This document shows positions 27,152 to 29,064 of a stretch of DNA of 33,782 nt, in pieces. The stretch lies in assembly GCA_020848475.1 (NCBI GenBank), contig JADKZZ010000026.1, positions 1 through 33,782 of the forward strand. Direction: 5' to 3'. The stretch is from Chitinophagales bacterium. Its GTDB lineage: Bacteria > Bacteroidota > Bacteroidia > Chitinophagales > JADIYW01. The translations under genes were made by a program, and so were the position numbers. Each line of letters starts with the position of its first letter. Positions within the stretch are counted from its first letter, which is position 1. Below the pieces are notes generated by a model. That model ran no database searches. It had not been told where the DNA came from and worked only from the letters and a program-made list of their open reading frames with translations.

Positions 27152-28123
27152 ATGCAAAAAGAAAAATATTATTATAATCCCAACACACTAAAATACGAGA
27201 AATACAAAATCAGTATTGGTCAGCGTATTTTACGAGTTACAGGCTTTTTTACATCAGCATTTTTCTTTGGCTTTTTAGCAATGGTTTTAGGTTATAGCGC
27301 TTTCGATAATCCGGAGGAACAAAGCCGTAAAAACGAAGTGAAATTAATGCAGGAAAAGTATGAGATATTAGATAAGCGTATAGATGAATTAAATAAAGTA
27401 ATCGAAGATTTAGGCGACCGTGATGATAATATTTATCGTGTAATTTTTGAGTCAGAGCCATTGCCTGATGACTTACGAAAAGGTGGCATCAATACATCAA
27501 AAATATACGCACAGCTCAAAAATTTACCAGAATCAGAAATATTAACAAGCACATTAAAAAAGCTAGAAAGCATTGAGAAAAAAGTATATGTGCAATCTAA
27601 GTCTTATGATGAACTTGCTAATTTAATTAAAAATAAAGAAATCATGTTGGCAAGTATTCCTGCTATACAACCTGTTTCCAATAAAGATTTGAAACGTATT
27701 GCTTCAGGATTTGGCTATCGCATCGATCCTGTTTATAAAACACCACGTATGCACGCTGGTTTAGATTTTTCAGCAGAAACAGGCACGCCTGTTTATGCCA
27801 CTGGTGATGGCGTCGTAGAAATTGCTGGCTCACAAGGTGATGGTTATGGCAATAAAGTGGTCATAAAACATGGTTATGGCTATGAAACATTATACGCACA
27901 CAATAGTAAAATATTAGTGCGTGCTGGCACGAAAGTAAAACGCGGACAAACCATTGCTTTAGTTGGAAGTACTGGTAAAAGTACAGGACCACATTGCCAT
28001 TATGAAGTAATGAAAAATGGAATTAAAATCGACCCTGTCAATTATTTTTTCAACGATTTGACACCAGAACAATATACACAAATGCTTAAAATTGCCGAGC
28101 AAAGCAATCAAGCATTTGACTAA
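27152..28123 (+). CDS. M23-family (LytM-type) metallopeptidase, membrane-anchored
   Basis: N-terminal TM, coiled-coil region, and GFGYRIDPVYKTPRMHAGLDFSAETGTPVYATGDGVV...YGNKVVIKHGYGYETLYAHNSKI...STGKSTGPHCHYEV. ORF track starts at 27140; MQKEKYYYNP at 27152 is also possible. Confidence 0.92.
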   Translation: MQKEKYYYNPNTLKYEKYKISIGQRILRVTGFFTSAFFFGFLAMVLGYSAFDNPEEQSRKNEVKLMQEKYEILDKRIDELNKVIEDLGDRDDNIYRVIFESEPLPDDLRKGGINTSKIYAQLKNLPESEILTSTLKKLESIEKKVYVQSKSYDELANLIKNKEIMLASIPAIQPVSNKDLKRIASGFGYRIDPVYKTPRMHAGLDFSAETGTPVYATGDGVVEIAGSQGDGYGNKVVIKHGYGYETLYAHNSKILVRAGTKVKRGQTIALVGSTGKSTGPHCHYEVMKNGIKIDPVNYFFNDLTPEQYTQMLKIAEQSNQAFD

Positions 28124-28153
28124 AAACAAAAAAAAATTATTCAATATTTACAG

Positions 28154-28504
28154 ATGCCATATAAAGACAAAGAAATAGAGAAAATGTATTTCACCATTAG
28201 TGAGGTAGCTAAGCAATTTAAAGTGGCCACTTCATTAATTCGATTTTGGGAAACAGAATTCGATATATTAAAACCACGCAAAACGCAGAAAGGAAACAGA
28301 TTATATTCTAAGAAAGACATAGAAAACTTTAGCTTAGTCTATCATTTAGTAAAAGAAAAAGGCTATACTTTAGATGGCGCAAAAAAGAAATTGAAAGAAG
28401 GATGAGCATCGGCAAAAGGTGAAAAAGAAAACACAAATGCCGAAATTGTTGCAAGATTAAAAAATATCAGAAAGTTTTTGGAAACCATGTACAATGAATT
28501 ATAA
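28154..28504 (+). CDS. MerR-family transcriptional regulator interrupted by an in-frame TGA (28403-28405)
   Basis: MYFTISEVAKQFKVATSLIRFWETEFDILKPRKTQKGNRLYSKKDIENFSLVYHLVKEKGYTLDGAKKKLKEG*ASAKGEKENTNAEIVARLKNIRKFLETMYNEL. The same frame continues 32 codons past TGA to TAA at 28502-28504, overlapping the next ATG. The ORF track stops at 28405. Confidence 0.85.
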
Positions 28505-29064
28505 TGAATAAAAGTAGAAAAGTAAATCCGATTTTTTATTTACTAATAAGCATTGTTTTATATGGTGCAATATCATGTAAAAATGAAAACAAGTCCAATA
28601 AAGAATATGCATCTCCTTATTTTTCTCCATTATTCAAAGCTAATAATGCTTTTGTTTATAGAAATGCCATGTTTGGATATTCTGTTGACGAAATAAAGAA
28701 ATCTGAAACGGCAAAGTTGTATGACGCTACTGTAGATCATTTGTTTTATGAATTCACTTTTCCAAAAGATTCCACTCTTTTTTCTGAATATGCTAATGTC
28801 AATTATTTTTTTGATGAAAATAATCAATTAGATATCATAACAACTGATGTTTTTCTGAGTGACAGTGCACAAGTTGATGCATTAAGCACAGCATTAGATG
28901 AGCATTTTACAGCATTGTATGGAAATAAAATAGAGACAGATGTAGAAAAACCTTTTTGGAATGGAAGCATACGCAATAAGGAAAATAAAGAGATAAATTA
29001 TACAATTTCTTACTCGACCTTAAGTGATGATATTGGCATCAGCATAGAGTTTGTAAGGAAATAA
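28504..29064 (+). CDS. Hypothetical lipoprotein
   Basis: 186 aa. N-terminal hydrophobic segment with lipobox-like YGAISC, then a polar mature region. Confidence 0.7.
   Translation: MNKSRKVNPIFYLLISIVLYGAISCKNENKSNKEYASPYFSPLFKANNAFVYRNAMFGYSVDEIKKSETAKLYDATVDHLFYEFTFPKDSTLFSEYANVNYFFDENNQLDIITTDVFLSDSAQVDALSTALDEHFTALYGNKIETDVEKPFWNGSIRNKENKEINYTISYSTLSDDIGISIEFVRK

Follow-up and report, generated by a model that had tools for sequence, protein, structure and literature searches.

In MerR proteins, the C-terminal helix makes an antiparallel dimer. The sensor-less MerR proteins HiNmlR (PDB 5d8c) and MtaN (PDB 1r8d), of about 110–130 residues, consist of a winged-helix head followed by such a helix, and the gene described here would encode an ordinary short regulator of the same type, in which a variable linker joins a winged-helix DNA-binding head to a C-terminal helix, the putative dimeriser. 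Its frame is interrupted in the available assembly by a TGA. Low coverage and low read quality have been reported to produce spurious internal stops in bacterial assemblies (PMC11017572), and tRNA-Trp species with a 4-bp anticodon stem or with A24 have been linked to the reading of UGA (PMC13092985).

The stretch analysed (the window, 33,782 nt) is one entire contig (C26) of a draft, MAG-like Chitinophagales genome of 2.68 Mb in 228 contigs, which is 95.6% complete with contamination given as 0.22%. The MerR frame starts at ATG 28154 and meets the TGA at 28403–28405 (context GGA TGA GCA), after which it remains open for 32 codons, as ASAKGEKENTNAEIVARLKNIRKFLETMYNEL, up to TAA 28502–28504; the next ORF starts with the ATG at 28504–28506. 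Both the coordinates and the translation in the original prediction were right. The features of the locus are as follows.

27152..28123, plus strand: upstream neighbour, M23 peptidase (PF01551, 119.7 bits; syntenic in congeners)
28154..28504, plus strand: short MerR-type regulator gene (merR), 116 codons followed by TAA, counting the internal TGA as read through (PF13411; seven congener orthologs full-length)
28400..28438, plus strand: hypervariable linker, codons 83–95 (alignments; low-confidence segment 84–93 of the model; exceeds the linker of six congeners by four codons)
28403..28405, plus strand: in-frame TGA, codon 84, most likely a consensus error (absent from 7/7 congeners and from the other order matches listed)
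28433..28495, plus strand: C-terminal helix, codons 94–114, presumed dimerisation helix (read-through model, HiNmlR/MtaN fold matches, conservation)
28502..28504, plus strand: TAA at which the gene naturally ends; it overlaps the ATG that follows, as TAATG (end/start overlap also in G006)
28504..29064, plus strand: downstream neighbour, 186-residue lipoprotein-like ORF (syntenic in congeners, 40–46% identity)

The merR protein matched PF13411 (MerR_1) at 73.5 bits against a cut-off of 21.6, and PF00376 at 34.5 bits, also above its cut-off. An N-terminal winged-helix MerR DNA-binding domain is thus present on the basis of Pfam matches and of the helices and wing in the structural model. The model of the read-through protein continues with a low-confidence stretch (84–93) and a C-terminal helix (94–114); this helix is predicted and conserved but lies beyond the TGA, and a truncated product would be without the part that in MerR proteins makes the dimer. 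The TGA itself falls in a linker that varies in both length and sequence, being three codons longer in G006 than in six congeners (TAS, against *AS here), and because the linker is hypervariable the ancestral codon at 28403 cannot be inferred. An inverted repeat (TCGGCA/TGCCGA, 28409–28414 and 28437–28442) was also observed just 3' of the TGA, one arm of it inside the part of the linker that exceeds its congener counterparts in length; folding predicts a weak hairpin, with z scores of −2.45 (60 nt) and −0.84 (125 nt). Reinitiation was considered and rejected, as the ATG overlapping the TGA (28402–28404) gives only MSIGKR in another frame. A family search with the downstream ORF matched no known family, and no second copy of the stretch was found in viral contigs.

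Conservation of the sequence beyond the stop was assessed using the 116-residue read-through protein as query. The source genome contains one copy, and all seven congeners carry a stop-free gene (79–88% identity) whose C-terminus aligns over its full length with the frame after the TGA. A merR match was found in 329 of 399 genomes of the order, and among the matches listed an internal stop occurred in the source genome alone. The original prediction had proposed that homologs ending naturally at LKEG would speak against a genuine tail; none was seen among the order-level matches listed, where the shortest complete open frame was ~109 aa and shorter ones lay at contig ends. Over the last 21 residues, comparisons with G007, G004 and G003 gave a dN of ~0.06 with synonymous sites saturated, a pattern like that in pairs of uninterrupted congeners. 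In the nearest relative, G006, the end of merR and the start of the next gene also overlap, as ATGA, which indicates that 28504 is the natural gene end. In the same genome merR is split across two contig ends (start on L127, C200; end on L128, C375), with pieces that overlap over codons 18–59 and are perhaps strain variants. Since the tail is conserved in congeners and undecayed, and the neighbours are syntenic, 28154–28504 is one gene, and its stop arose very recently or is spurious. The sequence beyond the stop is the true conserved C-terminus of merR, as had been proposed for this short Bacteroidota MerR group, and the reading of TAATG as a natural gene end was likewise borne out.

Internal stops were then sought in ~449 kb of the source genome (~17%) by comparison with 1.2–1.3 Mb of congener sequence. 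About 130 gene places had a counterpart, of which two were interrupted, both by TGA (merR and codon 9 of a DUF421 gene); no frameshift was seen among them. The reverse comparison gave a single hit in 123 places, in an ORF resembling an antisense shadow. A scan for coding frames running past stops added three further cases, whose identities as EF-G, O-acetylhomoserine sulfhydrylase and ABC-2 permease were confirmed by family models. The stops found outside the window, each a single one in a gene that is otherwise intact, are listed below.

L186 (G000:C41) 4678, minus strand: fusA (EF-G), TAA at codon 243, GAA to TAA; Glu invariant in 6/6 congeners
L142 (G000:C14) 2894, minus strand: metY (O-acetylhomoserine sulfhydrylase), TGA at codon 156; Gly invariant in 5/5 congeners
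L138 (G000:C10) 1630, plus strand: ABC-2 permease, TGA at codon 313; Gly invariant in 5/5 congeners
L139 (G000:C11) 12350, plus strand: DUF421 (YetF), TGA at codon 9, gene otherwise intact; Leu or Ser in congeners

The original statement, that an internal TGA is found in none of the other large ORFs, stands for the window and fails for the genome, as other contigs have such ORFs. One G-to-T change accounts for each of the fusA, metY and permease stops; it does not account in any simple way for the TGA of DUF421, a gene for which a downstream start is possible. The five stops in 449 kb amount to roughly one per 90 kb, so that a stretch as long as the window would be expected to hold one in about one case out of three. 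EF-G is essential, and no second EF-G gene was found in the source genome, which is about 4% incomplete; as the only detectable copy is broken, the assembly should hold at least one false stop. Isolated stops were also observed in the congener G005, scanned with a shared codon model and relaxed cut-offs, in nuoF (TAA at an apparently conserved Glu; L198 6844, plus strand) and in a CusA/CzcA-type pump (TAG at an apparently conserved Trp; L197 19502, minus strand), and the effect is therefore not peculiar to one bin. As to the source of the G-to-T stops, a MutY-deficient mutator was rejected because MutY is intact in the source genome; none of the eight genomes of the genus yielded a MutM above cut-off. 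The substitution spectrum of lineage-specific changes was uninformative, the genomes being too divergent. 8-oxoguanine damage would be no more than a guess.

We consider it probable that the merR TGA is a consensus error of the draft assembly, in the form of a single wrong base, in which case the living cell would make the full protein. This explanation is preferred because the stop is unique, the tail is undecayed and the assembly contains at least one false stop. What is expected of a spurious stop is seen here: it is absent in close relatives, the frame downstream is undecayed, and a like stop occurs in a gene that should be unbreakable (EF-G, in the only copy found, by TAA at an invariant Glu). 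We infer that the merR and EF-G stops have the same cause. Several points weigh against an error. The variable linker hides which codon preceded the change in merR, and such a linker, in a small regulator, is a site at which a real nonsense mutation would be tolerated too; the contig, at 33.8 kb, is long, contamination is 0.22%, and the DUF421 stop has no simple G-to-T explanation; and a genome about 4% incomplete could conceivably hide a second EF-G. The three explanations offered originally (recent nonsense mutation, error and readthrough) can now be ranked, with error first, recent nonsense second and readthrough last.

A genuine and very recent nonsense mutation, fixed or polymorphic in the strain, is the strongest competitor, although on balance we regard it as unlikely. 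The cell would then make an HTH fragment of 83 residues that lacks the presumed dimerisation helix, and the regulator would probably be inactive. A stop unique to the source genome ahead of an undecayed tail is what a young mutation would leave, and bacterial in-frame stops are often real but short-lived (PMC7918605). However, the stops at invariant sites in the same assembly, including that in the essential EF-G, cannot all be real, and the presence of the gene in 329 of the 399 genomes argues that its loss is costly.

Functional or tolerated readthrough, in which the lineage's unusual tRNA-Trp decodes some of the UGA as Trp and both a short and a full-length MerR are made, appears very unlikely. 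The tRNA in question is the following.

L233 127–198 (G000:C32), minus strand: tRNA-Trp(CCA) with a U27-C43 mismatch (4-bp anticodon stem) and U11-A24

Its unpaired U27-C43 and its A24 are features tied to UGA reading (PMC13092985), and the linker should accept any residue. Yet U27-C43 is missing from that study's list of variants shown to read UGA. The mismatch is common to G006, G001 and G002, while G003, G004 and G005 have G27-U43, and an identical tRNA occurs in G006, where merR has no internal stop and uses TGA as its own terminator. Readthrough would also leave the TAA in fusA unexplained, Trp would be unsuitable at the invariant Gly of metY and of the permease, and only a weak hairpin follows the TGA. 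The comparison of close genomes that had been suggested for this codon was decisive for one form of the idea: none of the seven congeners has the stop, nor do the order matches listed, and conserved or regulated readthrough is rejected (7/7). A further version, in which a natural tRNA-Trp with unpaired 27-43 and A24 makes UGA leaky in the lineage, so that linker UGAs persist and HTH-only and dimerising MerR forms coexist, is very doubtful as well. Should the stop nevertheless prove real and be read through, it would offer a natural example of UGA leaking through an unusual tRNA-Trp.

It is highly improbable that the protein naturally ends after 83 residues and that the tail is a chance frame or relic: the HTH head by itself does match the Pfam domain, but each complete homolog listed runs on into the tail, and the tail is under evolutionary constraint. 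We give almost no credence to TGA being a sense codon in this organism (e.g. Gly or Trp) or selenocysteine at this site, for although TGA interrupts four genes in the ~449 kb, in two cases at a Gly site, RF2 is present and intact (475 bits), congeners carry sense codons at the interrupted sites and the fusA stop is TAA. Wholesale recoding of UGA is rejected on the intact RF2, on the use of TGA to end 36 of 349 genes in the 449-kb sample (86 of 958 in G005) and on the absence of a UCA anticodon from the 30 listed tRNAs, a list that may be incomplete; selenocysteine is rejected since no SelB scored above cut-off in the genome and no Rfam element, SECIS included, was matched near the TGA (27900–28900). 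The original judgement that wholesale reassignment is unlikely thus holds; its count of TGA was about 3 of 27 gene ends, and the figure here is 2 of 25 main window genes.

More generally, these results advise caution, as a lone internal stop in a draft environmental genome can pass for recoding or gene loss, and checking whether essential genes of one assembly are “broken” too offers a quick, read-free test. With respect to known systems, HiNmlR and MtaN were the best fold matches of the read-through model; they are only 22–23% identical to the merR product, and the assembly frame here is broken before the helix. The tRNA-Trp(CCA) resembles the UGA-reading tRNA-Trp of PMC13092985 in being unpaired at 27-43 and in having A24, but differs in that U27-C43 is outside the variants listed there as shown and in being shared with congeners that have no MerR TGA. 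As in the in-frame stop polymorphisms of PMC7918605, a young stop would stand in a gene under purifying selection; that study, however, keeps only stops common to two or more species, and the merR stop is known from a single genome. There is also a parallel with the spurious pseudogenes of low-quality or low-coverage assemblies (PMC11017572): single internal stops, with no frameshifts, fall in conserved genes, one of which should be essential, although the cause is deduced here.
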